Source: Paraglomus occultum | Lineage: Eukaryota; Glomeromycota; Glomeromycetes; Paraglomerales; Paraglomeraceae | Direction: 5' to 3' | Length of the DNA: 38,360 nt | Assembly (NCBI GenBank): GCA_910592205.1 | Contig: CAJVPJ010000164.1 | Location: 1 to 38,360, forward strand | Shown: in pieces, positions 4,455-36,115 of the stretch | How the letters are laid out: every line of letters starts with the position of its first letter | Numbering within the stretch: position 1 is the first letter of the stretch | The notes under the pieces: model-generated | Database searches by the model: none | What the model was told of the DNA's origin: nothing | Seen by the model: only the letters and a program-made list of their open reading frames with translations | Position numbers and translations under genes: made by a program

Positions 4455-6795
4455 CTAAATTGAGTCGCTCTCGATTTCCGCCGTATCATCATCCTCGGTT
4501 GCATCAGTATCTTTTTTAGATGAGCAACAATATTTTCCAAGAGCCTTAGCCACTTTTATGACGATCACGACAAATAACAATAAAGAAATAATGCCTTCGA
4601 ATCCGAGCGCAACATATTTAAACACACTAGTTGTGCATTTGCTCAATCCTGGGAACAACAGGACCATAACCGCAATTCTCAAAAAAGATATGAATATATT
4701 CAATGCGTTCATCAACCATGTCATATAAGGCTTAAAAAGTAGAAGTGACAGGAAGAATAGTGTTTCGATAACAATCAAATAGATTGTTTGTGCGGTACCG
4801 CTTACGCGAGCAGCTCCGATACCGATAGCTCGAACCATGTCATAAGCGGTCGTGAAAATGAAAAACCATATGCGTGTCTTTTTTGGGTCTTTCCCTTCAT
4901 CATCCGTATACTGCGTGTAAAAGGCACCGTAAACGAATTCGTGAACTGGTGTCTTGAACGCGTCTGGATTAAAGTACATGTCCCGCATAATTCTGAACGT
5001 ACAAAAGCCGGTGATGCCAAAAGTGAAAAACGCAATACAAAGTGCAGCAAGAAAACGCAAGAACCAGCAGTCGAAATGAAGTGTTAGTTGATAGACGGCA
5101 AAAAGTGTGAGCGGGCTGTTAAACAGGAGCACCTGGACATTAAAAAGTACAAGTAAAAAAAATTATTATGGTCAAGTTCAATTCAGTCAGTTCAAAAAAA
5201 AACAAAGTCGTATAGTCGCATTACCACTCGCAACGCTCCACCTGCACGATAAAAAACCAATGTTAGAATGTCACATTGCGTCATGTTTCACACATGCAAG
5301 ATTTTTGCTTACCAATGAACAAAAGAGGAATGTTATTCCAACATTTTTCCAAAATGGGCCATTTTCCCCACCAATGTTTGAGCAAACGTGATACTAACAC
5401 AAGGATGAGGACAGCACCTACTGCACACGCCAACGCTATACAGAATATGATGAACACCATGAAGAACATATTATAGCTGGGAATGTTTAGCATTTCTCCG
5501 AAAGACGTGAACCCAGAAGAGAGCGGTTTCAACTGTGGTCTGCAAAATGTTGACATAGTTAAGTTCTCCACGTTAACCGAACAGCCATTGACGAGCGTGT
5601 TGCATATTCCTCCCCGAATTTTGTCGTCCGCGATTTTTGACAAGGTACCATTAAAGCCGCTTGAAGGTACACCGCTAAACCATGCAAGTTTGACCGATAT
5701 GTCCCGGAACAAGGGTGGGAGACAAAACAATGAGAGCAGAGCATTGCTTACGACAAACTGAGCAGCACGAAAAATATCATATACGGAAGGAATTTGTGCT
5801 GATAATGGGACTTGTTTGGCCGGTTCTCTACCTAGTTCGGCCCCATCCTTTGCGGTTTCGTCCTCTGCGGATTCCTCCTTTTTCTGTCTTTTAGTCACTT
5901 TCTTTTTGGCAAGCGCTTTGGTTAACTGTGCCTGCATTGCGGTGATCTGTTGTACCACACCAACGGCCAAAACGATAATTGCACCGACTATGAAGGGAAT
6001 GTTAATCACATTTGTGACGTTGCCTGACACCGAGGAGGGCCAATCGGCATTGCCAATGGGAATTACGGCGCAACCCGTAAGATCGGTATTAAAGTTATCG
6101 TGTAGGTAAAACTTCGCAAAGATGTCGTTGTGGGTAGCTTGATAAAGTTTGCCAAGCGAGTCTATGTTTATGAATTATTTGATTAACGAATGGACGAACA
6201 ACCCAAGCATTGTAACAGACAACAATAACGCAACGAGTCCTTACCGTCTGTGTCGGCATTTTTGTTATAAGAAAAGAGAAATGTAGTGGGTGATCCAATT
6301 GCAACTTCACATTTCCATTTTTCATTCCCACTGTTGCCTTTACCGCATGGTATATCAACAATGTGAAGTGTATTGTCGTCCATAGGCAACAATAAAATTT
6401 TTGGATCTTGTTGATAACTTAACGTCACTGGAATATTATTATTAATTAGATCTAACAACATTAATTTTGATATGAAAATCGGCACAATAATGTCAATTAC
6501 CTGTAGCATTACCCAACGTTACTGCATTTTCTGTAAAGAGATATGCAGATAATGTATCCGGGCTACTAATGAGGTAGAACTCTGTAAATTGTATCGATCC
6601 TCCGCAATTCCTGAGGCTATGTGTAAGTTGCTCAGTCGGACTGTCGACAGGTAGAAATGGACGATATCTTTTTTCAATCGTTGCTGGTCGGGCCGATGAT
6701 GTAAACGGTTTGACTAAATTTGCTGTGACTGCTGTCACGCACAATAATACTATTAGAAAGTAAATATTAAAACTAGCAACAAAATTGCTCTGCAT
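4455..6795 (-). CDS. TRP-like ion channel / flavin-carrier-type membrane protein with ML-like domain
   Basis: Five exons, complement(6501-6795, 6245-6427, 5313-6161, 5225-5241, 4455-5132), sum to 2,022 nt and 673 aa with matching phases. Residues 1-25 are a signal peptide. Residues 26-160 form a Cys-containing luminal region (RNCGGSIQFTEF, DIPCGKG, KWKCEV) like the ML-like domain of fungal TRP/FLC proteins. A membrane segment near 205-225 is followed by a charged cytosolic loop (KKKVTKRQKKEE) and about eight more hydrophobic segments. These include YNMFFMVFIIFCIALACAVG, TRIWFFIFTTAYDMVRAIGI and VFKYVALGFEGIISLLLFVV. The C-terminus is acidic. Fungal relatives (FLC1-3, Pkd2) act in ER, vacuole or plasma membrane in calcium signalling, FAD transport and cell-wall integrity; which role applies here is inference. 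The penultimate exon is a 17-nt microexon. A CAATAAA signal lies downstream on the minus strand near 4365. Confidence 0.88.
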
Positions 6796-9424: not shown

Positions 9425-9854
9425 TCCATCATTCACCCATGTCTTCCTCCAAAGATTAAATGCGTTGCTTGCCTAGCTCCTCTGGACTAACATCTTTTGG
9501 CTCATCTCCCCTTTCCTCTCCTACAAATTACTACTCCACACTTGTTTTCCTTCACTAACTCTATCACTCAAACTCTATATCATATTCTCATTACCGAAAA
9601 CAATAGGAGACGCCAAAGGCATCCCAGCAGAAATCAGCAAGCGCATACTAATACGGTTCTTTAAAGGCAATTAACAGAATCGCTGAATTAGATTACAATT
9701 GTCCGCGATCCTTAAAGTGAATGTAATAAGAATGTCTTTTTTGTGTGTAACAATGTATCGGCTGATCACCAGCATATTTACAGTTGCCTACATTCTCGTG
9801 CCACAAGAACCGTGTTTTTATCGAGTTTAAATTTTACCACCCTCAGACGTTAAC

Positions 9855-11247
9855 ATGACAAATCGAAATTCAAATGTGTCCGCCGACTCACTCTTCCGGA
9901 TCGCAGACAGATCGGTCCTCCGTTCACCCATGCCAAGACACATAAGCTCACTTCATTCAATAAGTACCACTCCAAGCATACCTGATAAACGTGGTCCAAT
10001 AAAACCCGGGAAGTTTATACGGCCGACGCCTATAGTGCCTGCGCTCGGCATACCAACAACACGCAGGCAACATAATTATACTAGCTCACCATTACCGTAT
10101 GACAAATTAAAGCGGAACACAACCCCAGAAAAGTTTTCCTCACCAGGAACGCCGCGTTTACCCGAGTCAAATAACGATTTTGGCCTTGTACCTTTTGAGA
10201 AAAAGATCGCCGAGTCTATACCAGCGCGTCGACAAAGTTACGAGGTAAGCTCGTTTCCTGGTCCTTTGATAGACGACGGTTATCGACCGGAGAAGGGCAT
10301 ATACATGACTCATTGGCATTTGAGATGCATTTCTGCACGCGGATTAAATCTTCCAGGTAATCTTGGCGTCTGGGTAGTGTTGAAAGGAATACGGAAATAC
10401 AAGGGAAAGTGGAAGGACTGGCATACGTCAGCAATTGTCGATAGAGTTGACTCGCGGGTAGTGCTGACATTAAGTGGACAAATGTACTACCTAGCTGGTG
10501 AGGTCATTGCTGATACAATGTTGGATGATGGTGAGTATTATCTTCCTTGTAACACTGATTGGAAAACTATCTAACCGTAAAATTTGTTTAATGAATGCTA
10601 GGATTTTCGTCAGAGTTAATATCTCGATTTTCGCAAGGATTTCCTTCAGATTGGAAAGCCTTGCTGGCTGTTGAGTTTGGAAAACATCAAAGTCATAAAA
10701 TAATGACTATGACATCTACGCCTACAAAGCGCAACGATGTCGTGAATTGCGTTCGAGATCGTTGTATAGCAGATGATCGTTGTATAGCAGATGATCGTTA
10801 TATGGAAGATGCTCGTCGTATGGAAGATGCTCGTTGTATGGAAGATGCTCGTCGTATGGAAGATGCTCGTCGTATGGAAGATGCTCGTCGTATGGACGAT
10901 GCTCGTTGCACGGAAGATGATCATTGTACGGAAGATGATCGCTGCACGGAAGATGATCGTTGCACGGAAGATGACTTCTCTACCAAATCACCTCCTCGTG
11001 AGATATCTGATACAAGCAAGGATTTATTTAACGAGGCCGGGCCGATTACGCCATCACCAAAGCCGGTAGCGGATTCTGACGTAAACTATTTATTCTAATT
11101 ATTGGGACATGGTGATGCTGGTGTTATCATGATCATTAATGATGCTTCTTTTCCATATAGGTGATTATATCAAAAGATGTAATTGCCATCACTCGCTCAG
11201 GGCGGCGAATAAAACGACCTGGTGCTTGGTGGGCCAACAGTCGATGA
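9855..11247 (+). CDS. KNL2/M18BP1-like kinetochore protein (SANTA domain plus CENP-C-like motif)
   Basis: Three exons (9855-10530, 10602-11080, 11161-11247) give 413 aa with consistent phases. Residues 1-150 are a Ser/Pro-rich disordered basic tail. Residues about 152-252 are a SANTA domain: THWHLRC, GVWVVLKGIRK, WHTSAIVDR, LTLSGQMYYLAGEV, and the hallmark GFSSELISRFSQGFPSDWK split by intron 1. Residues 278-349 are a 12-unit hexapeptide array. Exon 3 encodes ITRSGRRIKRPGAWWANSR-stop, whose spacing R-[ST]-x-R-x4-P-x2-[WY]-W matches the CENP-C motif that binds CENP-A nucleosomes. The SANTA plus CENP-C-motif pair defines KNL2/M18BP1, which brings CENP-A deposition machinery to centromeres (established in animals and plants). 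No SANT/Myb domain follows. Without intron 2 the protein would end at a TAA at 11098 and lose the motif. An AATAAA lies at 11385. Confidence 0.85.
10757..10972 (+). repeat. 12 x 18-bp tandem repeat inside the KNL2-like gene
   Basis: Twelve in-frame 18-bp units encode six-residue repeats. Units change along the array: two DRCIAD, one DRYMED, five ARRMED/ARCMED/ARRMDD-type, then four ending CTED. Every unit carries one or two Arg/His, usually a Cys, and two or three acidic residues. Because the unit is a multiple of three with few stops, both strands stay open in several frames, producing false ORFs here. The gradient of unit types suggests stepwise local duplication. Confidence 0.92.
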
Positions 11248-13721
11248 CAGAAATGCTGGATGAGTAGTATGAACGGCGTATTGAAACGGTGAAACGGAAA
11301 ATGAAACCAAAGGTTGAACGAGGGCTTTTATGAAAAATGTTGACGAGTCTTTTTTTTTCTTTTATTTCTTTTACTTAGATAATTAATAAACAACCTGCGA
11401 GAACAAGATATTTAATGTAATGAGCTGTCGCCAACCTATCTATTGGTTAAGTGACTATTATCATTGTTGCTAATGGTGTCCTATATACATTTAATGCTTT
11501 CATAATCGCTGGGTTACGAAATTATTAATACGAACATAGGGTAATACAGTCTTTGTTATTATTTCTATGCTAACGTTCATTTTTGTAGTTGAACGACCTT
11601 TTATTGCCGTTGCTGTTGACTGATTGCGATCAGTGATAATAATGATAATAGACATAATTATTGACACCATGTTTCCTACCATCCGTATGCTTTATCACAA
11701 GATTTATGCGCGTCAAGTAAATACTTTAGGAAAATGCGCAATTCAGAGTGATCTAACAAAATGTAATCCTATAGTGTTGGAAAATAGAAAGAACACCAAA
11801 AGTTGACAAAAAAAAATCGAATAGGAATGCTGTCGACTTATAAGATTGTCAATGTGTGAAGAAAATTGGCTTTTGGGTACATAAAATTTGGTTTGCACTG
11901 GTTTACATGCAAAGTTTTATACAGAAGTTTGGAAGAGTATCAGGAAATACCTTGAATTGGGTGAAAGTTTTTAGCAGGTAATGGCCCGAGTAGCCAAGGA
12001 TTGTTTTTTTTTGAACAAACGAACCAACAAACTTTCTCCGTGGTTGTAGATTGGCTTTTTAATAATTCAGTATTAAAAATCTGTTAAATACTGTGTCGAA
12101 AAACGTATTAGTAATGTGTCAGAGGGAAGTAATTTTTGACAAACATTATTTGTCGATTGCATGATTGTAATAGACAATAATGGTGTGGTGAAATGAATTG
12201 ATTATAACTATGTTTTTTATACCAATAAAAGCATTGCTTTGTTCATTACACGTTAGTATTGAAGCAATTCTATTTAGCCATAGTAAAAATAAGAGGCCAA
12301 TGTTTTCTTAACACGATTATATTGTAACAGAATTACATTTTGTCTTTTTATTTTAATTCAGACATGATTTTTTTCCACAGGCAATCTTTGTTAACTCAGA
12401 AGACTGTTATGTATAAGTCTTAATCAGCGTCTACAATTTTATTACGATAAGTATAGTAATAACGACTTAGTAACAGAACATACTTTCTATCAGATGTTGA
12501 AGATTGCTAATGTCGTTACTGAGTTTAAATTGGCAAGAATGCGTTTAATAATAAATGACATTTTCTCAGTATCTAACCGTCTTCTAATACTAAAGGCTGT
12601 AGTAACAGAACAAAATTTCTGTACAGATGTTGAAGATTGCTAATGTCGTTACTGAGTTTAAAACATTGGCAAAAATACGTTTAATAATAAACAACATTTT
12701 CTCAGTATCTAACTGTCTTTTAACCGCTGTTGCTAATATTGGTTTAATTATCTGATGTCATTCTATGTTCAATTCACGCTTCTCATAGCTAGCAGTTTGT
12801 GCAGACTAATAATAATAACGAGCACATTACGTAATTTAACCATGTTATCACCAAATTGATGTGGCTATTATGTCATTCTTCCTTTCTTTGTTTCCAATTC
12901 AGGAGATAAATGTGTTATACAAACACGTAAAATACAAATCAAATCACTTAAAAGGGATTTCACTACGCGTTATCCAAATAACAGTCCAAGTTTATTAAAC
13001 GCGTTATGTGCGGTCGCTTGGGAGAGCGTTGTTCAACTAATGACGAAGACGTTCTTCAACGTAACTGACTGCTAGTTTTGAATCATTTTTCGTAGGATAT
13101 TTCGTCTGAAAATCGGTTTAAATAAAAATGACTCTTTCAGCGAGCCCTGCCGGCTAGTAATTTACGAACAAGGAACCAAAAATATCAGGACAAAGCAACT
13201 ATAGTTGAACAAAATTGATGTAATTTTGTAACCAGGTGAAGTAAATTAAAAGTGCGATATTGTTTAATTCCAGGTTTCTCAGCCGTTCTCTGAGCACGTA
13301 TAATCTATTTGATGATATATATTACATACTGATTACATGTTCAAATAAATGTTATAAATATTGGTTTTACGGCGAGATAAAAATCATAATTATAGAAATT
13401 TACTCTTTATGAGCTCCCATTACGCACGGTTGTAAGCTTCTTTTATTTCTTAATTTAGTTGCCTTAATATCAATAAAATTATGGTAATTGTTTGCATAAA
13501 ACCATTTTTAATCAAACAAAATAATGTTTGACTCTACAGGTAATTTTGTTTATTGCTTCTGTTAACATGTTTCATATTCTTGCAAATGCCAACTGTCATA
13601 AAAGGTCATGCACTAATTTAATCACGTAATGATGGAGATGCCCCCTTTCTCGCCTTAGCTTTACGAGAATTTAGAACCTTCAAAGTTATAGACTGATATA
13701 TACTTTTCATTAAAACTAGTT
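11248..13721. other. 2.5-kb intergenic region
   Basis: No gene is supported. It contains the KNL2-like 3' flank with its polyadenylation signal at 11385-11390, a direct duplication at 12469-12723 and AT-rich DNA. Small frames at 11500-11682 and 11624-11806 overlap on opposite strands and show no domains. Confidence 0.55.
12469..12723. repeat. Two-copy direct tandem duplication
   Basis: Copy 1 (12469-12587) and copy 2 (12601-12723) share AGTAACAGAACA, CAGATGTTGAAGATTGCTAA, TGTCGTTACTGAGTTTAAA, TTTAATAATAAA and TTTTCTCAGTATCTAAC. They differ by point changes and small indels. No TIR, TA flank or coding frame is evident, so it reads as a local non-coding duplication rather than a transposon. 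Confidence 0.88.
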
Positions 13722-15369: not shown

Positions 15370-18300
15370 ATGCTTGAGTCACTCGTCGCGAATGTGTTGA
15401 ACAGGGTTTTGGGGGCTTATGTATCTAACTTAGAGAATAACCAATTAAATATTGCTATATGGTCTGGTATGTTGCATGAAAAGGGAGAGAATGAATTCAA
15501 AGAATACGAGTGGTTTGTCTTCTTTTCGTACCGTCTAATTCTGGTTATGAACACTGAACAGGTGATGTCGTATTGAAGAATTTACAACTGAAGAAGGAAG
15601 CTTTGGATAAATTTGATCTACCTGTTGATGTATTGGAAGGTGATATTTTGTCCATTAAACAACAAAAGCGGAGAACATGCGAAAACTTAGTCTTTTAGCC
15701 CTTGTTAGTGTTATTATAGCCTTTAACTTTGTATGAATAATTGTGTTGTCATAGGTTATCTTGGTGAATTGACATTGAATATCCCATGGGCCAATCTAAG
15801 GAATAAACCAGTCAGAGCTCTAGTTAAAGACGTCTATTTATTAGCTGTGCCTAAGGCTGAATCTGAGGTCTGATAATTGCTGCAATATGATCATGATAGT
15901 AAATGCTATCTTTATGATGATGATACATTGTATGCTAATATCACCATTATTTATGCGATTGGTATTCGCTGCCTGATGTGATTTACGCGTCTGCTTGTTC
16001 TATCGGCCATTAGTATGATCCAGTAGAGGAGGAACGACGTGCCCAGCAATTGAAACAAGAAAAGTTGGCTAATGCTGAACTGTTAGCCGCACAGCCGTCT
16101 GAAGGTAGCAACACGATTCCTCTGGCATTGTAAAAAAATTTATCGTCACATGTATTTGATGCAAAAAATGCTATTCTTTAGACGGTGATGATAGTAAGAA
16201 TCAATCGTTTGTGAATTCACTCGTCACTAAGGTCGTCGACAATCTACAGATATCGATCAAGAACATACACATCAGATATGAAGATAGGCTTAGTGATCCA
16301 GGCGTAAGTATATTGAGATTACATGGTGCTGGGATGCTATCATTTCTTGCTGGCTGTTGTTGATCTGTTATAACACACATTGCTAGCATCCATTCGCAAT
16401 CGGAGTGACTCTTTCAGAATTATCTGTCGTGTCTGCTGATGAAAATTGGGTGCCTACATTCATTGAGAATGAGACAAAAGAGATTCGAAAGGTACAGTGC
16501 ATGTAATGGTTGCGTATGTACTTTGAATGTTTGTTACTAACACGGTTTGATATCGTGTAGTTACTCACTCTAGGCTGCTTGGCTGTATACTGGAATACAG
16601 ATACGACATCGTTAGCCGGACATGCTTCAAACGAAGCAATTAAATTATTTAATAGTCTGGTATTGATATCACTACATGTGCAGAATTATCTCTTTATACA
16701 CGATTATATTGATTTATTGTTTATTCTACCAAGATTGCATCTGGGAATAATAGTATTGATCACCAGTATATTCTGAAACCAGTCTCAGGAGAAGGACGTG
16801 TACGTATCTTCAAATAATGCTATTTATATGCCTAATGTGGTCGCGTACTGTTTAATCGTGCTTTATTCTAATTTATGCTTACTATTACAGCTTACTATGA
16901 GCAAAGGGCATGATCCAAACGTCCCAAAAATAAATTCTACTCTCTTATTTGACCAATTAGGCTTTGTCCTAGATGATGAACAGTACAGGGATGCGTTATT
17001 AATGGTCGATTTGTTCCATTTCTTTCTGAGACAACAACAAGTGAGTCAACAGTTTTAACTATGTGTTGTAATCGTTTTTGCTGCAACATTTATTCCTAGT
17101 CCATTTAACATTATGTCTAATATTGGTCTTACTTGTCAAAAGTATCGTAGATTTAGACCTCCAAAAGAAGTAACGCCAAAATCAAATCCAAGAGCTTGGT
17201 TCCAATTTGCAGGCAAATGCATTCTATCAGAGATACAAGAACGTAATCGCAAATTTACCTGGAATTATATCGCAGAACGTCGACTACAAAGAATAGAATA
17301 TCTCGATCTTTATACCAAAAAAATGCTCGACCGCCTCACTCCAGAGGATGCTGCAAAGTTGGAACAATTGGAAATAAAGCTCTCTTACGAAGATATCAGA
17401 TTTTACAGATCAATAGCCAGGAGTAAGCTACGCAAAGAAAAGGCACTCATAGCCAAAAAACGAGAAATAGAAAAACAAGATAAACGCGGTCGTTCTGGAT
17501 GGCTGAGTAACTGGTGGTATGGCGGTGGTTCATCAGGGGGAAATGAGAATGAGACTATATTGACCGACGAACAAAGAAAAGAACTTTATGATGCTATAGA
17601 ATACGATGAAACGGCAGCAGTCACTGAAGCGGTTGAGATACCCAAGGATTCGATTCAACTGCAATTCAGTACTATACTGAAAATAGGATCCTTTGCATTA
17701 AAGAAAAATCCGCATGGGAAAAAGCATACCATCCTATCGTTGGTGTTTGATACAGTCACAACTAAATTTCTGCAGAGACCTACGTCATTTGCGCTCGAAA
17801 CTGCTCTGGGCAGTCTAGCCGTGTACGATGGATCAACAGAGGGCACCCAGTATCCACAGATAGTCCGAGTTAAAGAGGACCTCCGGGCCGGAAAAGCCAT
17901 AGAAGAAGCACAGGCGACTAGCGTGATTCAGGAACACGACATTACACCCGCAGAAGGGCATGTTCCCGAAAACCCCTTCTTTCAACTGATGTTCGAATCC
18001 AAACCAATCGACAACCGTGCTGATAATGCTTTCTCCCTGAAAATGAAGCATCTTGAGATCATATATAATAAAAACGCGATCGATGCCGTCCAAGACTTTT
18101 TCAAACCACCAGAACAGCAGATGGAATCTATCGCAGTGTTGATCGAAGCTGCTGGAGATAGGTTTGAAGGGATTAAAGCTCAAACACGCGCCACGTTAGG
18201 ACATGCTTTCGGGTATGCTTTAGAAGAGCACAAGACGATGGATGTGGAGATTGACATGAATGCACCGATTGTGATTATACCAGAGAGCTGTACCAGGAAA

Positions 18301-21300
18301 GATGCCGAAGTTATTGTGTTGGATGCTGGTCGTATTAGCGTTGTGAGTAATTTGGTAAAAAAAGAAATAATTGCAGAAATCAAGTCGAAGGCGGCAGATA
18401 CGTATAGTGATGAGGATCTGGAAACTTTAATGTATGACAGATTTTCTGTGCAGTTATCATCTACTCAGGTATTTATTTTGGATGGGGATATGTGTTTTTC
18501 ATGTGCACTTTTCACCTTCCACAATATCTCACCACGTCTTCCCTAATGTAAATATAGCTTCTCGTAGGCCACTCTGCCGAAAGTTGCCTAGCTCAAATTC
18601 GTAACGTAAGCACTACTTATGACCTCCATGTAATCGACCGCATCAACATCAACTTCCTTGTGGAACTTTCTATTCTACCTTCCGCCCCTAATATCGCTCG
18701 TGTCCGCGTTTCTGGCAATTTACCATTACTTCAAGTCAACCTCTCCGATCGCAAATACAAAACCATCATGAAGATTGTGGATTTAGTCACAAAAAAAGAT
18801 GATGCGGCAGGAGAAGATGTTGTAAAATACATGGAAAAAAGGAAAGCGAGTAGTCCTGGCAGTGGGAAAGGGACTATATCAGGCAAAGGCAGTTTAAGAG
18901 GGAATGAAGCTAAAAAATCATGGGAATTGGCCAAGCACAGGGATTCTATGGCAATTTCGGAAAAGTTTGGTTTGGGTCGGGGGTTAGCGGATCTTTTGAT
19001 TGATAGTGAGAGTGATGGCGAAGGTGAAGAAAGCAAGGCAGAAGAAAATACTGACGAGTTCTTTGACGCTGTTGAAAGTGAAATTCCTCAGTCCGCAAAA
19101 CTAAACCAACGCCTATTCGAATTCAAATTTCAAGTCGATAAAGTATGCGCTTACCTCAAAAAATCCGATAAAGATTATGAAAAGCCCGAAACTGTTCTTG
19201 CCGATCTGTTGCTCGAACACTTTGCTCTTAGCTTTATCCTCCGCCCGGTCGAGATATCAGCCGAAGTCACGCTGGAGTCGTTCTTTATCGAAGATAAAAT
19301 TACTGAAACGCGATCTGAATTCAAACACATTGTTTCATCGAAAGGGGAAGCAGACGGAAAAAATGATGGGGGAAATCTGGTTCATGTTAGATATACAAAG
19401 GTGGATCCGCAGCATCCAGAGTATATGTCGAGATTTGAAGGGATTGATCAGAGTGTGGATGTTGTATTGAGGACTATTACGATTGTCGTAACCAGGAAGA
19501 GTATTTTAACGCTTTTGGATTTCGTTCTTGATACGTTTACTACGCCAAATAATTCTCCGGCTGTTAGTACTCCATCGAGCAATGAATCACATGATGTACA
19601 AAAACAACGAAAACCTCGGAAACAAGCAAGTACAATGCGAGTTAAAGTCCAATTGACTAGCATTGTATTTATACTCAATAACGACGGAACACGCTTAGCC
19701 ACTGGCTCGCTGGAGCGAGCAGACGTAGCCGTAATGTTGCGCAAAGACACGCTCCGCGTCGGTGCTCGCTTGGGCAACTTTTCTTTACTCGATGATACTA
19801 ACAGCTCACCTAATATCCGTCAATTGCTAACCATACAAGACGAGAACTTGGCCGATTTCCGATATGAAACGTTTGATGAAAACGAACCGGGTTATCCCGG
19901 ATATGATTCGTCAGTATATCTTCGTGCTGGGTCGGCTAGACTCACTTTTCTCGAGGAGCCAGTTAGATTGTTGGCTGAATTTGGGAGTAAATTTGCGCAG
20001 ATGAAAGGATTATATGATTCTGCTCGTCGCGCTGCTGTTGAACAAGCCGCGCAATTGCAGAAGGAAGTGCAAAAATTTCATTTTGATATTGAGATACTTG
20101 CTCCTAATGTCGAATTTCCGAGGAGCATGTCCAAGGACAGTGTTGTCGCTAATTTAGGTCAATTCTCTGCGTTGAATGAATTTGTTAACAACTCTAACGG
20201 AAATGGATATTTGACACGAATTACAGCCGGAATCAAAGACATTCGCTTAACTTCGAACTTTTTCTCCGACAGCGGAAACAAACAAGTACTGCAGATTATC
20301 GATGATGTTGATATTACGTTCAAAGTACAGTATTCTCAACAAGTGGGGGGGTCGAATATGGAAATAACTGGGCATATGTCTGATGTCAAGATGAAATTAA
20401 CAGAGAAGCAGTACAAGGTCTTGTTTGAGCTGTCGAACCAAGTCGCTCGTGCATTCAGTGGAGGTGAAGCAGTTGAAGATGGTAATGGACCGTCTTTGAG
20501 TGCATATGATGGGACCGCCGAGTCTACGCCTGTGCCGTCTTCGCCAGTAGTTATATCCCCCACTACTGAAGCACTTTCAGATAAGCCTGAGCTAAAACTA
20601 TCCACGACATTTAATGTCAATCAAATATATCTTGAAATATTTGCTAAGGATGAATTGCAAGCGGACTCGTCGGACGGGAAAAGTCTATCAAAGTTTTCAC
20701 TGAACAAGACTGATTTTAAATGTAAAATACTTACTGACGACACTATTGATGCGGAATTGCGACTCCAGTCGGTGACCTTGAGTGATACTAGACCTAACAT
20801 TAAGAATGTATTCAGAGAGATATTACCAGCTATCAATAAGGATGAACCGCAGTTTCTAGTTAGTCTAAGCATGTCAGGCGGGGCGGAACGTAATATTATT
20901 GCACTAGCTACAATTGATAGTCCCCGAATGATATTTGCTCTCGATTATCTGTTTGCGCTTAAAGACTTCTTCCTGAGTCCGTTTGTATCAGATAGTAATA
21001 ATTCAACGCAACACAAGCAAATACCCGAGTCACCAGAAGAGACAGCACCAACCCCGCCTTCTAAACCGTCTCGTCCGTCTAATCAATCCACTTCATCTGC
21101 ATCCAAGTCGACAACGCTTAACTATCGTGTAAATTTGAAATGTGCAGAAATAATTCTACTTGCCAACCCACAAATTGAAAGCACGGAAGCAGTTATTCTT
21201 TCTGCAAATCAGATAGTACTCACACAGCAAAGTATAATGGCATTATCAATCGATGAAATAGGCATGTTTTTATGTCGTATGGATAAACGAGAGGCTACAT

Positions 21301-24300
21301 TACTGCGATTTATCGACAACTTTAGAGTTTCGCTCACACTTGACAACAACCCATCGGCCGAGTATAGTCGATCAACCAGCATTATGATTGATGTTGGACC
21401 GCTGGTCATGCGAATGTCTTATAGAGACGTTATGTTACTAATGTCGATTTTGAATAAGATATCAGAATTATCATCTCAGTCATCATCTGCAAAGTTTAAA
21501 GAAATTACAGATGAGAAGTTGAATTTTGATTACAGAAATTTACAAAATGCAGTTAAGGAAAAGGAAAAAGAATGGAAGGAAAAGGAGAGAACAGTAGAGT
21601 TGGTTAAGGAATCGTTAAAGGCCGGATTTCAGGGATTGAAATTGATTCTGATCGGAGATGAACATAATATTCCAATGATTGACATGAATGCAAAGGGGTT
21701 CGCTGTCAATGTGAATGATTGGTCATCCAAGGTAATAAAACTTGTTATTGTTGTTTTTTACATGTTTGGGTCTATTTTTTTTCTTAATACGGTACCCACT
21801 TTTTTTAGATGACAGTAGATGCTGTTTTGGAGACTTACATCAACTACTTTAATCTGACTAATTCGCACTGGGAGCCCTTGATCGAACCATGGCATTATAA
21901 ATTACAAGTAATAAACTAAATATTGAGTGTTTCTTATTATAATTGATCAACGATACCATTAACTCTTATAATAGGTATCCAAGAATCTTAACCCGGAGAG
22001 CATGTCGATCGAAATATTTTCAAAGAAACGACTGGAAATTAATATAACTCACATATTCATTGAGACAATGTTGACCACGCTTTCTATTCTTAAACGTGAA
22101 AAGGAGGTCTGTTTAGATACATTATACGAATAACTGAATTTGTTATTCTGCATGCTTGTCTCAACTTTAATAATCCGTTCTGTAGCATGTGTTGAGCACG
22201 GCAAGAGAATCACGAACTGCTTATAAATTGGTCAATAGAACGGGATATAGCATGCACGTATGGAAAATATCAAGTGACGATAATACTGATACAGAGATAC
22301 GCATACTCGCAGATGGCGAGGAGGTCAACTGGCGTTTTGATGATTGGAGAATTGAAAGAGAGGTAATTATACATATCCGGAAAACACATGATAAATTAGA
22401 TTCGTAATTCTGATCAATAGTATCTTTGAAGAGTCTTCCTTCCCCGTCTTCGACCAAGAACATGCTTGGACTGCAATTCGAAGGCTCAAACTGGGAAAGT
22501 ATAAAGGATATTCCTGTTGATCGTGAAGGCGAAACATTCTACATACTCCGACCAAAACTGAGAGAAGTATCACATCGTCTGGTGGTCGACGTCAAGTTAA
22601 ATGATAATATCAAAGTTGTGACTTTTCGATCGGCATTGGTTGTGGAGAATAGAACCATGTTGAATGTGGAAATGATGATAGTTGATGCAAATGAGAAGCA
22701 AGTGTCGGATATTTATCACATTGGTAATGACGCGTTTTGAGAAGATCGAGACATCTTTGCTGATTTGTAGTTGAGGGAATTCCGTATGCTCACTATTATT
22801 TTTTGCACAGGACCAAATGATGACTGTCCTGTGCCGTTCGAATCTTCATATCATCATCGTCTGAGATTCCGACCTGAGGGTAAATAGTTGGCGATTCTAA
22901 AATGTCATGTATTTACCCTATTTGCATCGATTCTGAGCTTTGTTGTTTATTAGGCGGTTTTGGCTATGATTGGAGTTCTCAGAGTCTATATTGGCAAGAC
23001 TTTATCAGAAAAGATACAATCAAGTCTATTTCATGCGCATCTACCGGTGAAGATGTCCCATTTAGATTCCAAGTATTTACAAGATATAAGAAGGACAACG
23101 CGCGCGCCATGTAAGCATCAGCATTAAGGAGCCAGATCTTTTCCGTTCTTACCAACTGACCATATTTTCTTTATGTTGGGGTTCTTTTTCCTCGCTTACA
23201 GGACGTATCCATGCATGTCGATTCGTCTGTCTGCACCAATAGAGATAGAAAATCTTCTTCCATATGATGTCAAGTTCCGCATTTATGATAAGACAACTAA
23301 ACACGATTGGCCGAATAACCCTTTGAGTAAAGGAGGAAGTACCGCGTTGCACTTGATTGAATTGGGACATTTGTTACTTTTGAGTGTTGAGGTATTGGAC
23401 ACTGGTATGTGATAACAGCAAATGATGAGAGAAGGAATCGATATAGACTGAATTTAAATATTGTTAATACAACTATTAATCAATATTGTTTTATAGATTA
23501 TAAACCATCCGAATTTGCAATTATTAGCTCTCCAAATGAAGATTATCACGTAGATAGCACTCTTACAGTCGAGGATCCAGAGGGATTGAAACTAAATCTT
23601 AAAATACACTATACGTAAGTTGGAAGACCGCCGTGTTTTGTTATCGCGACTATCCGCTAACGTGTGAAATTTATTCAGTGAGATTCCAGATTCAGGAGGC
23701 GCCTTCAAATTCAGTATTTATAGCCCATATGTGATGATGAATAAAACAGGTCTGGATATGACGTTTAAGAGCAAGTCACTCTTCCAGAATGCTAAGATTG
23801 CTGCTGGTCAAGGTAAAATTTAACGACAACGCCCTATTTAATGCTAGCGCAATACTCATGACTCAATTTATCTTGCAGGATGGCTATCCGGACGGCGTAG
23901 GAATCAAACGGTCCGTAAATGCCAACCCTTAATGATTATTTGTTATCTAAAATTTTTTGTTCTTACTCATATTTATTTCACAGGTTAAGCCATATATGTT
24001 CTCTTACCCGAGTGATGAAACAAGGAATCGAGCATTACTTAAAGTTGGAGATTCGGACTGGAGTAGTGTACGTTTTGCGACGAATGCGACAGTTTATTTA
24101 TTATGCTATAACATATCTATGATTAATGCGTTTTCATTGAATTTAAATAGCCTTTAAGTTTTGAGGCTGTTGGGAGTGTTATGGAAGTCGTAATACCTTC
24201 TCAATCACGAGACGATGAGATACACATTGGCGTTAGCATCGAAGAGGGACATTCGAAAGTAAGTTGTCGTCATACTCAGTATATGGCATTAATAACCAAG

Positions 24301-27300
24301 TAAAATATACGCGACGAATATCACCTAATAACCCTTTTTTTCTTTCGCTACCATAAAGTATAAATTGATAAAAGTCGTAACATTCACTCCGCGTTTCATC
24401 CTCAAAAATAATCTTAACGAAGATATCGATTTCCGAGACGTGTATTCCAATAATGCAATTTTATTAAAGTCAAAAGATAGAGCACCTCTACATTTCTTAC
24501 ATAGGGGAGACGTGAAGCAGCTCTGTTTTTCGTATCCTGGGAACCCATGGTGAGGTTTATTCTTGGAAAAGGTTTACAGGGATGGTGTTGACGCCCACAG
24601 ATATATTAAAGTATTCTATGCTTTGATTTATGAATAGGTCTGCACCAATTAACATTAATGATATCGGAAGAATACATCTAAAACTTGCGAGGGCCGATAG
24701 AGAAATTCATCTACTGAGAATTGAAATTCTATTGGAGCAAGCAACCGTTTTTCTGGTCCTTAACAGAGAAGAAGGAAAATGGCCATATAGAATAGATAAT
24801 CACTCCAACGTTGATGTTGTATTCTATCAACAAGTAAGTGACAAACGTGTTTTACCATCTGGGAATTATCCTCCAAAATTAACTTAAAAAAAAACAACAA
24901 TTGAAGACTCCTGATCGCCGCGAATCAGGCTCCAGTACAAGTCTCTATGCACCCAAAAAATATGGTCTCCCAGCAGGCAGTTCAGCAGTATATTCATGGG
25001 ATTTTCCAGCACTGAAAGAGAGGAAGTTGATTTTAAATGTCAATGGTACGGAACGAACAGTTAACATACAAGAAATTGGAACTCTTGTTCCGTTCAAGGT
25101 TTCGGTAAGGCGATTTGATATATAATCCTCTGATCTAAAGCGATGCCGCGTAATTAAACTAGCTATCCTTAACAGCGTCCCGATGGAGTTCATATACTCT
25201 CCCTCGAAGTCGCTGCAGATGGTCCTATGCAGGTATTACTGCTTAGTAATTATAAGCAGTCAAAAAGCATGTACAAGCCCCGTCCTGCATCAGTAGCGTC
25301 AGTCGCGAAAAGCGAAAATGGAAGTTCAAAGGACGCCTTTGAAATTGTAAGTCTGGGTAACAGTGTGATATATGCCGGATGGCAGAGTTCATTACTAAAT
25401 TGCATCATCGTGTTTCCTGACAATTATTTGTCTCATTTAGATAGATGTTGATTCTGTAACTACTCTCAACTTCCAAATCATACTAGAGGGTATTGGAATT
25501 TCTGTCGTTAACAAGAGAATGCATGTGAGTAGATTTCTATACTTAGTTCACTCTACAACGACAACCGCCGTCTAATGCGTAAACCTCCTTTTTCGTTAAC
25601 AGGAATTATCTTATATATTACTACGTGGTTTGGAGTTTTCGTACAGCGATTCCACGCTTTATCAGTCACTACGTTTTGTAGTAAAATGGTTACAGGTAAT
25701 AAGATACTGTACTTATTAATGCAATTAAGCTAGACTTTGAATAGGCGCAATCCACAAATTTATACGTATTATTTGTACTTGTAATTTTTCCAACCAGATT
25801 GACAATCAGCTCTACGGTGGTCTGTACCCAATCATCTTTTACCCAACAATTATACCTAAAGAAGGGAAAGAGATCGAAGCCCATCCTACCTTTAACGCGA
25901 CTCTTATCAAATCGAAAGATGAATCTCACGGAGTCGTATACTTTAAATACTTTTCGATGCTGTTACAAGAAATGACTTTTGAAATAGATGAAGATTTCTT
26001 ATTCGCATTACTGGATTTCATGAAACTAAAAGGATTAACCGCTGAAGAGGATGATCTGCAGCTGTTTGATGGAAATATGGATGTTCCGGAACCAAAGTCT
26101 ATGGAGGGAGATGCACAATATTATTTTGAGATAATGCATAATCAGCCAATGAAAATTAACATATCTTTCGTGAGAACCGAAAGGATTAACGTTGAGGATA
26201 AGTATCCTTTTAATCAGTAGCGCGTGAAGGAGGTTTTTGGCAGGCGTATTCCTGTTAAACGAATACTTAGAATTTGTAAATTGAAGAGAGTAGCGTTCGC
26301 ATCCGTTCTTTTTATAGTCCTTGACTTTGTTTATAGACCTCCGCCACGGAATCCAGTCATGTTCTTCTTCAATATTTTGACGATGGCCATTGGAAATATC
26401 AATGTAAGTATCCGTGGTCTAATTATTGCACGACTTTAATGAAGTCAAGACATATTTGTCCGAAATTCTTCTAATGTATTTGTTTTCATCTACCCTCAGG
26501 ATGCTCCAATAAAACTAAACGCTTTGGCGATGGAAAATATGCGCGTTAGCCTTCCAGTACTCATCGATCGCATTCGTCGGCATTATGGCCAAGAATTCCT
26601 CTATCAAATCCATAAAATCATTGGATCGGCTGATTTCTTGGGTAACCCGGTTGGACTGTTTACTAATATCAGTTCTGGTGTGATGGATGTATTTTACGAA
26701 CCATATAACGGAGTTGTTATGAGTGGACCGAACGAGCTCGGGTTTGGAATTGCGAGGGTAAGTAAGAGGAAGAACAAGATATCAGATTAGAGAACTTGGT
26801 GAAGTAGATTATCGCTCTCGTTCATTGATTATATGATATAGCGATTGTCCTAGTACTATTGTCATATCAAACTATTACTCACTTAACCCACCTACCCCGC
26901 ATTTGCTCTTCACCTTAATTACAGGGAGGTCTCAGCTTTGTAAAGAAAACCGTCTATGGTCTCTCCGATAGCGTTGCCAAATTTACCGGTAGTATCGGGA
27001 AAGGACTCTCTGCTGCGACATTGGATAAATCCTATCAAGATCGTCGCCGTATGGCACAATTCCGAAATCGTCCCAGACATGCACTCTATGGCATCACCCA
27101 AGGGGCAAATGCGCTTGCAACTAGCGTTGGAAGCGGCATTGAAGGATTGGTTAGGAAGCCGATCGAAGGTGTTGAGAAAGAAGGAGCAGCTGGCTTGTTG
27201 AAGGGTGTTGGAAAAGGAATTGTTGGGTAATTTTTGGGGCTGGAAGGCTTTGATGGTTGAATACATCCAGGTCGTGTGATTAGGATATTGACTTGATTAA

Positions 27301-27902
27301 ATGTGTTTGTAATATAGGTTTGTTACTAAACCAGTCGTCGGTGTATTTGATTTGGCAAGTAATGTTACTGAAGGTATGTATGGCTTATTTCAAAGGAAAT
27401 GACCACGGACTTTATCAACATTGCTAATCAAATCCTTCTCTCGACACAAGGTATTCGAAATACAACAACCGTATTTGACGAAGGCGAATTAACTCCAGTT
27501 CGACCACCTCGCTTTGTTGGGCGCGATGGTATATTAAAACCTTACAATTGCCGTGAGGCTGTCGGCCAACGAATGCTTAAAGAACTCGAAAGCGGCAGAT
27601 ACTTTAATGATGATTACCTTGCTCATATTGAGCTCAAAGGCGATGATATGATAGCAATGCTTACTCGATCACGAATAATGCTTATTAGGAGTAAGCGGTT
27701 GAAAGTAGAATGGGAAGTGCAGTTTTCGGATCTTCAGGCGGTTTCAATGCAACCGTCAGGGATTTTGCTGATGTTGAGAAATGGAACACCAGGACCGTTT
27801 ATTCCTATTGCAGATCAAAACGTGCAGCATTGGTTCGAGAGAAAAGTAGAAGAAGTTATTAATGAATTTAATGCCGAGAAGAGATTAGCTGAATGTTATT
27901 AA
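15370..27902 (+). CDS. VPS13: VPS13 bridge-like lipid-transfer protein
   Basis: My 35-exon model totals 9,498 nt and 3,165 aa, with every junction in phase. That is close to the yeast Vps13 length. Main exons are 15370-15466, 15562-15639, 15755-15867, 16014-16104, 17143-18468, 18558-21731, 22186-22362, 22954-23110, 24359-24549, 25798-26201, 26500-26757, 26925-27226 and 27451-27902, with many small ones between. The N-terminus [15 protein letters not shown] is the chorein domain. [13 protein letters not shown] and the two long exons form the repeating-beta-groove rod. 22186-25200 encode the VAB/SHR-BD adaptor region ([38 protein letters not shown]). 26500-27373 encode the ATG2-like C-terminal region ([37 protein letters not shown]). 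The last exon is the PH-like domain. VPS13 moves bulk lipids at ER, vacuole, mitochondrial and peroxisomal contacts. Internal splice sites at 16734, 18558, 22432 and 26202 were chosen by phase and conservation. AATAAA lies at 27943. Confidence 0.96.
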
Positions 27903-31157: not shown

Positions 31158-33211
31158 ATGGCGGCTATACGTTGTACGAGTCTGTTATGCTTCATTCTAC
31201 TCTTTTCGGCTCTCATCTTCATTAATGCGCAATTCGTCAATCAGGATTACGCGTCCTCCACTCAATATACTATCAACAAATTACAAACAAAGATAAATAC
31301 TATTGAAAATAAATTTAAAAATAAGTTGGAGGACTTGAGACTCGAGTTGGAAGCTCTTGAGCATAGTCTGCAAGAACCGTTGGATGATTTGGAAAATAGT
31401 TTTGAGATACTGACACATGACGAGTTTCCTGAGTATTCTATCCGATTGAAGTTAGGATCGTTGTGTGATAATACTGTTAAGCAGGTAAGATATGCACATT
31501 TACATCTCTATATAGATAATGTGTATGCGTGTGTGGTGTATTCTATAATAAGCATGCATTGTACTGTATCTCTACTGTCAACTGCTACTGTTGGTTATTT
31601 GCTCACTATTCTTTTACTTTTTTTAGTACACTGGTTATCTTGATGCCGGCAATAATAGACATTTCTTCTTCTGGTTCTTTGAGTCAAGAAGCAACCCCTC
31701 AACTGATCCAATTGTCTTATGGGTATGTTATTACATCCAGTCGATTATAAGTATGCTCATGGATTTTCTTCTAACAATATATGTATACACATTGTCAGCT
31801 GAATGGCGGCCCTGGATGCAGCTCTTTGACTGGATTGTTTTTTGAATTGGGTCCATGCACCGTCAATGCTGAAGGAACCGACGCAGAATTTAATCCTTAT
31901 TCATGGAATAATAATGCTTCGGTCATATTCTTAGATCAGGTAGAGCAAATGTTTTCTCATGTGTTTCCCTACTGTTTAGGCCTAAGCTTAACGTTGACAT
32001 TTCCAATGTAAACACAGCCAATGAACGTTGGATTTTCTTATGGTAATGGAGTAACCAATACTAATGCTGCAGCTCAGGACGTGTTGGCGTTTCTCCAAAT
32101 ATTCTTCAACAAATATCAACAATATGGCCAATTAGACTTTCATATTGCTGGTGAATCGTAAGTCAGTCTATTGTACATGAATGATATAGACGTTATAGTA
32201 TGGAGCTTATAATAACATGATTTGCTTCAATCACCTAGTTACGCAGGTCATTACATTCCGGCTATCGCATATGAAATCGTCACTCACAACCATGCCGTTG
32301 CCGGTATCCATTCCGGATGCACCGAATACGATATCAAGCCAAAAACCAGTAGTCTCATCAACTTTAAATCTATTCTTATTGGCAATGGTCTTGTTGATCC
32401 TCTTGTTCAATACAAATACTACCCTGAAATGGCTTGCAATTCATCGTATCCCCCGGTACTCGACGACGATACTTGTGATAGGATGAGATCGGCGTATCCC
32501 AAATGTGCTCAATTCATTAGCAACTGTTACAAATCAGAGAGCGTATTTAGTTGTCTACCTGCTTCAATGTACTGCAACAAAGAGATGATGGGTCCATATC
32601 AGCGGACCGGGAAGAATCCTTACGACGTCAGGAAAGATTGTGAAGGGAATAGCCTATGTTATCCTATCCTTGAGTCTATCGAGAAATATTTGAACCGAGA
32701 AGATGTTAAACGCGAACTCGGTGTGGACCCTGGCATTCGTTATAAAAGCTGTAACCATGACGTTAACTTCAGATTCTTGATGGCTGGTGATTGGTCAGTA
32801 TAGATATGCATATCCCTAACTTGAATTCTAATATGTCACCCGTGAGCATAAAAACTGACGTTTTTCTTTATTAGGATGCGTCCATATCATCAACTAGTTC
32901 CCAAATTGCTGGAATCGGGTATTCGCGTCCTCGTATATGCAGGTGACGCCGACTATATCTGCAATTGGATTGGCAATGAAGCATGGGTAAGGGCAATCGA
33001 ATGGTCTGGTAAAGACGCATTCAACTCCGTCAAGGATGAAAAATGGATTACTGAAGACGTATCCAGGACATGGGCTGGCAATGTCAGAAGTTCAGGATTG
33101 CTAACTTGGCTTAGGGTCTTCGAGGCTGGTCATATGGTGCCTTACGACCAATCCTCAAACAGTTTAGACTTCTTTAATCGTTGGATTCAGAAGAGAGAGT
33201 TGTCTGTATAA
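31158..33211 (+). CDS. Serine carboxypeptidase, carboxypeptidase Y-like (peptidase S10)
   Basis: Six exons (31158-31484, 31627-31722, 31799-31939, 32018-32157, 32239-32793, 32875-33211) give 531 aa, all in phase. Residues 1-24 form a signal peptide ending INAQ. A helical Leu/Lys/Glu-rich propeptide ([20 protein letters not shown]) follows. The mature enzyme starts near [20 protein letters not shown]. The substrate-binding [10 protein letters not shown], the [11 protein letters not shown] segment, nucleophile Ser in GESYAGHY (split by intron 4), Asp in [10 protein letters not shown] and His in [10 protein letters not shown] complete the triad. Many Cys residues in the insert domain fit the family's disulfides. 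It removes C-terminal residues from peptides at acidic pH in the vacuole, after entry through the secretory pathway. AATAAA signals at 33253 and 33273. Confidence 0.95.
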
Positions 33212-33345: not shown

Positions 33346-36115
33346 CTACAATCCTCCCCTCAATTCACTAACAACCATTCGCATCCGATCCTCACTCATG
33401 ACCCCAAATTTATAAACCTGCATAACAAAACTACCGGTACCAGCCGTTAAACTCCTCAACGCGCTTCCGTATCCTAGCATTTTTTCCAATGGTACTCTGG
33501 CATAGACTACTCTCCTTGGCTTTTGTATATCAACGTAATCATCACTTTGATAAGTCCCGTCAGGTGGTGCATAGACCTCTCTTTCTTCTATATCACTCAT
33601 GTCACTTTGCCCTGCAGTTTCGAGCGATAGAATATCTCCACGACGAACACCGCTGAGATCACTGACGACTACGCCGAGATACTCTTCAGGAATCTCAACG
33701 GTAACGTTCATCAGTGGTTCGAATAGCAAAGAGTTGGAGCGCTTGAGAGCTTGGGATAAAGCAAGGGATGCACACGCACTAAGGGCTGTCTTAGATGACT
33801 CGGTACCGAAAAGGCGTAACGAATGAACTTTGACGCGAAGATTTATCAATGGAAAGCTGAGAAGTGGGCCACGGTATAGTGCAGAAACAAGACCACTGCG
33901 AATTGAAGTTGCAATGTCTTCGGGTGGGAGTGATGGCCCCTGTGTGGGTGTTTGTGTAGGAGAAGACTGTTGCGATAAATCAAGTTCAATGCGATTTCCT
34001 CCTTCTTCTGCTATTCCAGAATCACCCTCTGTTAATCTGCTAATATTCAGCGACATCTGAACTCTTGCTCGTTTACCCATAATTTCTTTATCGTACAAAC
34101 AGGTATGCTCAATCTCATCGATAATACTCTCCCTATACGAAATTCGCATCTTTCCGATTTCTGCCCTGACTTTGAAGTCGTTCAATAACCTGTCTCTGAC
34201 AATTTCCAAGTGAAGCTCTCCCATCCCACTAATTAGCGTCTGTCCAGTCTCTTCGTCATTGATGACATGCAAAGAAGGATCTTCTCTTAACACATTTTCC
34301 AGTGCCTCTTGTAACGGCTTCTCGTCCGATACTGTTGCCGGCTCAACAGCACAGACAAATACAGGCGCAGGTATCTCTATACTAGGAAGACGGAGTGATT
34401 TACGAGAATCGTTAAATTGAATTAAAGTGTCACCAGTACGAGTGGATTTTAATCCGACAAGCGCACAAATGTTGCCAGCGGTTATGCACGGGATTTCTTC
34501 AGCATCATTGGCATGCATCTTTAATAGTTTGTTTACACGCTCGTTCGTTTTCGTGTTTGTGTTATAAAGCGACATGCGATTGTTTAAAGTACCTATAGGG
34601 ATAACCAAACCTTATGAGTGAGCATGTTTGCGTATCAAACATATTATTATATTATGTTCCCAACCTGAATATACACGGACAAAAACCAATGATCCTCTTC
34701 TATGATCATGAACAACCTTGAATGCGAGAGCACATAAGCTCTCCTTCTCCTTTAGCGGTATTACAGTGTTTTTCCCATTTGCAAGAGTTCCTATAGGCGC
34801 CGCACAGTCAAGAGGCGATGGCAAGTAGTCCACAATAGCATCGAGCACTGGCTGGACGCCACGGTTCCGAAAAGACGCCCCGCAAAATACGGGAACGGCT
34901 TTACCACTAAGCGTCACTCTTCTCAAAGCACCTCTCACTTCCTCAGCCGATACCTTCATATGATCTTCTTCGGCAAGCATGATCTCCAAAATATTGTCAT
35001 CCATCTCAGACAACGCTTCAACTAGGTTCATTCTCCCTTTCACTGCCTCATCGTAAACACTCTTATCACCATATTTCTCGGTCAACTTTATCCTCTTAAC
35101 GATATTACCATTGACATCCTGATCCCAATCCAAGACATCCATTTCTACCAAATCCACGGCACCCCAAAACACATTTTCTCCACGAGCATCTTTTTTCATG
35201 ATAGGAATCTGACACACCAACGTCCGTGTCCGCAACTTTTTGGCAATCTGCCGGACAGTTCGTCCAAACCTGGCCCCAACCCGATCCATCTTGTTTACGT
35301 ATGCAATTCGAGGTACGTTATACCGATCGGCTTGGGCCCAAACAGTTTGCGTTTGAGCTTCGACACCAGCAACGCCATCAAGAATAGTGACAGCACCATC
35401 GAGTACGCGGATGCTGCGCTCAACTTCAATGGTAAAATCGGCATGGCCTGGGGTATCTATAAGGTTAATGCGGTAATTGCGCCAGGCAAAGGTAATTGCA
35501 GCGGAGGTTATGGTAATACCGCGTGCGCGTTCTTGTGATAAGTAGTCCATAACCGTGTCTCCATCATCGACATCTGTTCCGTGACAAGCGGAATAGAGGA
35601 TAAATGAAGACGGGAGGAGAAATGTTTTGCATTGCGGCAATGATTATAAATGAGCGCTTGAATAAAAGATAGGAAATCGGATAAAGTGTGAAGGCATGAT
35701 TTACATTAATGTTTTGGTAACTTGCCCCCTATTCGTCTTGTAAGTCCCGCATAGTGCAACATTCGTTCTGTGGTAGTCGTTTTGCCTGAAAGCCACAGTT
35801 TGCTACGTTAAAGTCATATTGGTAATGTTGTGGATGTGATTGAAGCTCGTAGATACCTGCATCTATATGCGCGATAATTCCTATATTTCTAATACGTGAA
35901 ATGTCATATTCTTATGTTTTGGTGAATTATTTATTAGTTGATAAAAAATTCTTGGCCGACGCGAGCGAGGTCATTGTTCTAGTACCTTCACTTGACATTG
36001 AATATGATCTCACAAATCTATAGTATCGTTCATGCGTTGATAGCAATGGTTGTAGCCTATTCCGTCTTAGAGCAGAGAGCTTTATGCCCTTCAAGATAAA
36101 ATGCCCCAGTAGCAT
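33346..36115 (-). CDS. MEF2: Mitochondrial elongation factor G2 / ribosome-releasing factor 2 (MEF2, GFM2)
   Basis: Five exons, complement(35986-36115, 35857-35910, 35726-35785, 34665-35573, 33346-34592), sum to 2,400 nt and 799 aa, all in phase. Residues 1-40 are a basic, Arg-rich mitochondrial presequence (LRRNRLQPLLSTHERYYRFV). G1 AHIDAGKTTTTERM is split by intron 2. The switch region GDVDDGDTVMDYLSQERARG identifies the EF-G2 rather than the EF-G1 branch. G3 is DTPGHADF and G4 is NKMD; domains II-V follow (GELHLEIVRDRLL, RRVVYARVPLEKMLGYGSAL). A Ser/Thr/Gln/Pro-rich insert (QQSSPTQTPTQGPSLPP) in domain IV looks lineage-specific. EF-G2 works with RRF to split mitochondrial ribosomes after termination. 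Intron 3 is GC-AG. The gene converges on the carboxypeptidase gene with a 134-bp gap between stop codons. Confidence 0.95.
35574..35725 (-). other. GC-AG intron in MEF2
   Basis: The donor is GGGG|GCAAGT and the acceptor is GAACAG|ATG. The join restores RRIG-DVDDGDT in frame, which is the conserved EF-G2 switch region, so the non-canonical donor is well supported. The intron is 152 nt. Confidence 0.85.

Follow-up and report, generated by a model that had tools for sequence, protein, structure and literature searches.

A probable KNL2/M18BP1-type gene with a CENP-C-like tail in the glomeromycotan fungus Paraglomus occultum

The probable KNL2 gene and its surroundings

The stretch of DNA analysed here, called the window below, comprises 38,360 nucleotides of a Paraglomus occultum contig and belongs to an assembly of 32.3 Mb in 1408 contigs. 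Its GC content, about 34–43% in 4-kb blocks, is closer to the value of 37% reported for two assemblies of Paraglomeraceae than to the Glomeromycota average of 27% (both figures from the available text of PMC11134847). The gene under study is flanked by ordinary neighbours (Table 1). It occupies positions 9855–11247 of the forward strand and consists of three exons that keep a single frame throughout and encode a protein of 413 aa. The ATG at 9855 and the stop codon at 11245–11247 were checked at base level, and the exons, splice sites and protein length put forward in an earlier note on this DNA agree with the present analysis at the same level.

Table 1. Features of the window and the second KNL2-like copy (window positions unless a contig is named)
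Feature	Position	Strand	Description
TRP-like channel frame	4455–6174	−	Ordinary neighbour
KNL2 exon 1	9855–10530	+	Proline/S-T-P-rich N-terminus and first part of SANTA
KNL2 intron 1	10531–10601	+	71 b, GTGAGT...TAG; interrupts the SANTA domain
KNL2 exon 2	10602–11080	+	End of SANTA (GFSSELISRFSQGFPSDWK), then low-complexity acidic linker
18-bp tandem array in KNL2 linker	10757–10974	+	In-frame, 12.1 copies; units e.g. DRCTED/DARRME
KNL2 intron 2	11081–11160	+	80 b, GTAAAC...TAG
KNL2 exon 3	11161–11247	+	C-terminal CENP-C-like (CENPC-k-type) motif RSGRRIKRPGAWW and stop
VPS13-type lipid-transfer gene frames (VPS13_N, VPS13_M, VPS13_C)	17059–27899	+	Downstream of KNL2; ordinary
Serine carboxypeptidase frame	32216–32800	+	Ordinary neighbour
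Elongation-factor-G frames	33349–35643	−	34612–35643 by eye only; ordinary neighbour
Second KNL2-like copy	C700, about 10371–11674	−	77% identity at the exon-1 protein level; no synteny

The best relative in the database is the P. brasilianum protein P0001, which has 343 aa and shows 84% identity across 69% of the query, and the protein searches returned no relatives beyond P0001–P0003. The N-terminal part of the window protein, roughly residues 1–145, is rich in proline and S/T-P and includes the conserved stretch RPTPIVPALGIPT. The whole protein has 11 S/T-P sites, of which T58, lying in this stretch, is invariant in four aligned rows and is also present in the second copy on contig C700. 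As plant KNL2 proteins carry a TPV/IK CDK motif ahead of SANTA (according to the available text of PMC13294675), T58 may by analogy serve as a CDK site. The linker of P0001 has a single DRCTED at the site of the 12.1-copy array of the window protein. The 18-bp minisatellite in the window is a possible strain marker.

The SANTA domain and the CENP-C-like tail

The Pfam SANTA family (PF09133) is matched by residues 174–245, which align with profile positions 18–91 of 92 (E = 1.7e-14; 54.5 bits, with a cut-off of 21 bits); the domain that the earlier note had read from the letters was thus recovered by the profile search it had proposed. This match crosses the junction of exons 1 and 2 and thereby supports intron 1. 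P0001 carries SANTA as well (E = 1.3e-15, Pfam). Human Mis18BP1 (9r6h) was the sole PDB relative of the window protein at E ≤ 0.1 (E = 1.6e-6, phmmer), and the same chain was matched by P0001 (E = 9.3e-8). Four Pfam families were listed at E ≤ 10 for the window protein, with HMMER filters removing most weak matches, and neither SANT/Myb, in line with the earlier claim that this domain is missing, nor the CENP-C cupin family was among them. A match to LED_rpt (E = 0.0014, below its cut-off) was judged an artefact of the tandem repeat, and the prokaryote library NCBIfam gave, as expected, no match for P0001. According to the available text of PMC9210943, SANT/Myb occurs in the KNL2 of some organisms only and is absent in plants, so it is not required for membership of the KNL2 family.

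The comparison of the window gene with the C700 copy showed that SANTA is under purifying selection. The dN/dS ratio (NG86) was 0.24 for the part of the domain in exon 1 and 0.08 for the part in exon 2 (26 codons); the whole of exon 1 gave 0.36 and the linker 0.81 (34 compared codons). An AlphaFold2 model (P0001 and three further rows) had a mean pLDDT of 33.4, and its strand-then-helix pattern was not used as evidence.

The signature RxxRxxxxPxx[FYW]W is matched exactly and only once in the window protein, at residue 397 (RSGRRIKRPGAWW), where the earlier note had placed a CENP-C-like motif. The register of the tail is that of vertebrate CENP-C (RxxRxxxxPLxYW), of the CENP-C central region RxxxxPxxWW, where nucleosome binding requires the arginine and the tryptophans (available text of PMC4830207), and of the plant CENPC-k example KRSRSGRV/LLVSPLEFW (available text of PMC9210943). 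Its WW resembles the central region of human CENP-C (KSRRISRRPSDWW). The motif stops four residues past the WW and does not include the downstream half, which reads GERxxY in vertebrate CENP-C. P0001, a deposited gene prediction, ends with VIVSKDVIAITRSGRRIKRPGAWWAYNH, which holds the same motif RSGRRIKRPGAWW, and a run of 22 residues (SKDVIAITRSGRRIKRPGAWWA) is identical in the two proteins. The C700 copy has nearly the same motif (RAGRRIKKPGAWW), with two changes and the signature residues kept. A comparison of 27 exon 3 codons between the window gene and the C700 copy gave 8 codon changes of the replacement type and 3 silent ones (dN/dS 0.59, NG86), a ratio that is not low; in the 15-codon motif core there were 2 replacement and 3 silent changes (dN/dS 0.23), the counts being small throughout. 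We take the tail to be a genuine but short CENP-C-like motif in which the portion following the aromatic pair is missing.

Shuffling produced the signature in 63 of 200,000 whole-protein permutations and in 7 of 200,000 permutations of the last 28 residues. A five-row weight matrix scored the window at 12.5, the C700 exon at 10.1 and the P. brasilianum protein at 8.9; the window score was reached in 78 of 5,000 whole-protein and 72 of 20,000 tail shuffles. Two other stretches outscored the window motif among 192,523 residues of stop-to-stop frames, a set drawn from the loci of the analysis, the window included and L001–L003, L038 and L039 left out. The support given by the matrix is modest. 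With a motif so short, a matrix score of moderate significance and a 28-residue P. brasilianum tail that matched no PDB chain (phmmer), the gene might be read as a KNL2-family SANTA protein whose tail resembles CENP-C by chance and which reaches the centromere via CENP-C or Mis18, much as mammalian M18BP1 does via CENP-C. The exact CENP-C/CENPC-k register, the C-terminal place shared with plant alphaKNL2, the unchanged run in P. brasilianum and the retention of the signature residues by the paralogue make this reading improbable.

The CENP-C-like motif depends on the splicing of intron 2, as the unspliced frame terminates at the TAA at 11096–11098, and such a read-through had been named in the earlier note as the outcome that would leave the motif untranslated. 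Read-through is disfavoured by P0001, which continues into the motif, and by the C700 paralogue, in which exon 3 is 84.1% identical to that of the window and intron 2 is 67.1% identical. These values are identities over the positions aligned in a single global alignment with gaps, in which exon parts reached 82–89%, intron 1 74.6% (adjoining exon parts 88–89%) and the flanks about 66%, and in which the linker took up 224 gap columns. Exon 3 is therefore predicted to be spliced and translated, as supported by the P. brasilianum prediction, by its conservation in the C700 copy and by the low dN/dS of its motif core.

A second copy and the partner genes

The genome contains two SANTA matches, both above the cut-off, one in the window gene and one on C700. 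The DNA similarity between the two loci is confined to window positions 9763–11237, and among the window frames of at least 100 aa just the two KNL2 ones matched C700. Allelism of the two copies was rejected on these grounds, and the C700 copy is, judged by its sequence, a dispersed paralogue. A one-base length difference relative to the window places a stop in its frame directly after SANTA, and the downstream linker and motif exon are still recognisable past this stop. The C700 copy may be a recent pseudogene or may encode a SANTA-only protein, or its stop may stem from an assembly error within an A run. The window KNL2, as far as its letters tell, looks intact. A short frame (L003, 4603–4992, forward strand) lies upstream of the C700 copy, some 430 b from its start; it has no Pfam match, and we take it, by eye, to recall the MATA_HMG-like proteins of Glomeromycotina.

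In an unrooted FastTree tree of five exon-1 proteins, the window protein, P0001 and P0002 were separated from the C700 copy and P0003 by 13 sites, with a support of 0.998. Since both copy types are found in this genome and also elsewhere (P0001 and P0002 versus P0003), the KNL2 duplication would most simply be older than the split of the sampled lineages. Plants have an alpha KNL2 with the motif and a beta KNL2 that is devoid of it, and metazoans have one KNL2 (available text of PMC13294675). It is conceivable, and in our estimate rather unlikely, that Paraglomus independently evolved a plant-like pair, with an alpha form carrying the CENP-C-like tail in the window and a SANTA-only beta form on C700, the two perhaps being partners at the centromere.

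The search of the assembly for other components of the CENP-A loading machinery gave a single Scm3/HJURP match, at C945:6634–6777 in a 276-aa open frame (E = 5.0e-15 in the genome search, 2.3e-15 with Pfam alone). Mis18 was found as two pieces at C1231:8590–9004, apparently split by an intron. One of them lay above and the other just below the cut-off in the genome search; both were above it when scanned singly with Pfam, and when joined they matched S. pombe Mis18 (E = 1.3e-9) and human Mis18-alpha (E = 4.3e-8) in the PDB. Weaker Mis18 matches lie on C390 and C923. Nuf2 was found on C983 and H3 genes on C9 and C36; C782 gave H2A/H2B-type matches and C61 an H4-like piece, both named by eye.

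Of the three components that the earlier note had proposed to look for, Mis18 is thus present, and CENP-A and CENP-C were not found in the assembly. Four protein/profile searches of the assembly returned no CENP-A beyond the two H3 genes, though the H3 query recovered H3 exon pieces down to 21 aligned residues, and none of the seven matches of a CENP-A pattern search of the assembly stood in an H3-like context (by eye). The H3 on C36 was rejected as CENP-A, being 95% identical to H3 over residues 4–95, as was an H3-tail-like match on C400, which lies in the frame of a von Willebrand-type protein (by eye). The assembly search for CENP-C with PF11699 gave no candidate and is weak evidence, as this profile matched below its cut-off in 8 of 14 control genomes; a further CENP-C search was empty as well, an answer that carries no weight by itself, and Ndc80 was not found in the assembly by a search whose empty answer proves little. 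Nuf2 and Ndc80 are obligate partners, and as Ndc80 was missed though Nuf2 was found, the absences of CENP-A and CENP-C from the assembly prove little. An incomplete assembly or search likely lies behind the missing CENP-A, CENP-C and Ndc80, a real loss of CENP-A being the less probable reason; for P. occultum, PMC9453076 gives 44 Mb assembled in the available text and 39.6 Mb in its abstract.

The unrecovered CENP-A, together with the Mucorales and Umbelopsidales, which are described as devoid of CENP-A in the available text of PMC9089191, would fit a lineage in which the tail is CENP-C-like by ancestry and KNL2, Mis18 and Scm3 act on H3 nucleosomes or at DNA-defined centromeres without CENP-A. 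We consider this very improbable, as the same source reports CENP-A in Endogonales and other fungal clades, and the missed Ndc80 and an assembly of 32.3 Mb against the 44 Mb of P. occultum point to incompleteness. Moreover, losses of CENP-A and HJURP coincide in fungi and animals (available text of PMC13001451), and an intact Scm3 in this genome therefore predicts that CENP-A is present.

Proposed role and known systems

The SANTA domain, the CENP-C-like tail and the missing SANT match bear out the KNL2/M18BP1-type identity proposed in the earlier note. The window gene is probably a KNL2/M18BP1 orthologue of the alphaKNL2/non-mammalian type, and its general role is most likely that of an adaptor in centromere licensing that links CENP-A nucleosomes to Mis18–Scm3. 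That the SANTA domain belongs to another chromatin protein with no centromere role is highly improbable, for although SANTA alone is no proof of function, its combination with a CENP-C-like motif is the architecture of KNL2, no PDB relative other than human M18BP1 passed the threshold applied, and Mis18 and Scm3 are encoded in the same genome.

In its role as an adaptor, KNL2 would dock through its C-terminal motif on existing CENP-A nucleosomes by analogy with CENP-C, whose arginine contacts the H2A–H2B acidic patch and whose tryptophans contact the CENP-A tail. Direct binding of the tail to CENP-A nucleosomes is reasonably likely. The conserved S/T-P-rich N-terminus and SANTA would bring in Mis18, as suggested by other species, and Mis18 would then recruit Scm3 carrying new CENP-A–H4. 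According to the available text of PMC11879092, CENPC-k is needed for the centromere targeting of KNL2 in Arabidopsis, chicken and frog, and in Arabidopsis it is insufficient alone and needs adjacent positively charged DNA-binding stretches. Much of the linker of the window KNL2 is acidic. This speaks against the proposed role, as do the missing downstream half of the motif, the dN/dS over exon 3, the modest matrix support and the CENP-A and CENP-C that were not found. An ancestral fungal route of CENP-A loading, as envisaged in the earlier note, is plausible.

In animals and plants, KNL2 contributes to re-forming centromeres at their proper site. Fission yeast is without M18BP1, and Sad1 takes over the recruitment of Mis18 (available text of PMC7618776). 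The occurrence of KNL2, Mis18 and Scm3 in one fungus would suggest that early fungi possessed an animal-type licensing set, part of which was lost later in the fission-yeast line. A compact KNL2 of 413 aa should be useful for biochemistry, and the gene offers a handle for locating centromeres in arbuscular mycorrhizal fungi. CENPC-k is mentioned for the KNL2 of chytrid fungi, among others, in the available text of PMC9210943, which cites Kral 2016 and Sandmann 2017; in the portion of Kral 2016 available, neither 'fung' nor 'chytrid' occurs. As a chytrid KNL2 with the motif has already been mentioned, a fungal KNL2 of this kind is not categorically new. No report of KNL2 in Glomeromycotina was among the matches listed in the open-licence PMC literature, and the glomeromycotan KNL2, its Mis18 and Scm3 partners and the KNL2 duplication are, as far as searched, new.

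Among known systems, CENP-C/Mif2 shares with the window protein the motif signature only, the WW variant of the window protein resembling the CENP-C central region, and no CENP-C cupin family is among the Pfam families listed for the window protein. Non-mammalian vertebrate KNL2/M18BP1 (chicken peptide PDB 7y7i; frog) combines SANTA with a CENP-C-like motif in the same way, and binding to the CENP-A nucleosome would be expected of both, whereas the window protein has no SANT/Myb match. These vertebrate proteins are also longer. Human M18BP1 is alike in its homologous SANTA and unlike in having no CENP-C motif and being placed by CENP-C (available text of PMC11879092). The chytrid KNL2 with CENPC-k can be likened to the window protein by description only (PMC9210943, available text). 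In Arabidopsis KNL2 the motif has positively charged DNA-binding flanks (PMC11879092, available text), whereas the window protein has an acidic tandem-repeat linker. Plant alphaKNL2 differs from the window protein, which has 413 aa, carries WW in place of FW and ends just past the motif, but shares with it SANTA followed by a C-terminal RSGRxxxxPxx[F/W]W, the absence of SANT and a TP site in the conserved pre-SANTA stretch.
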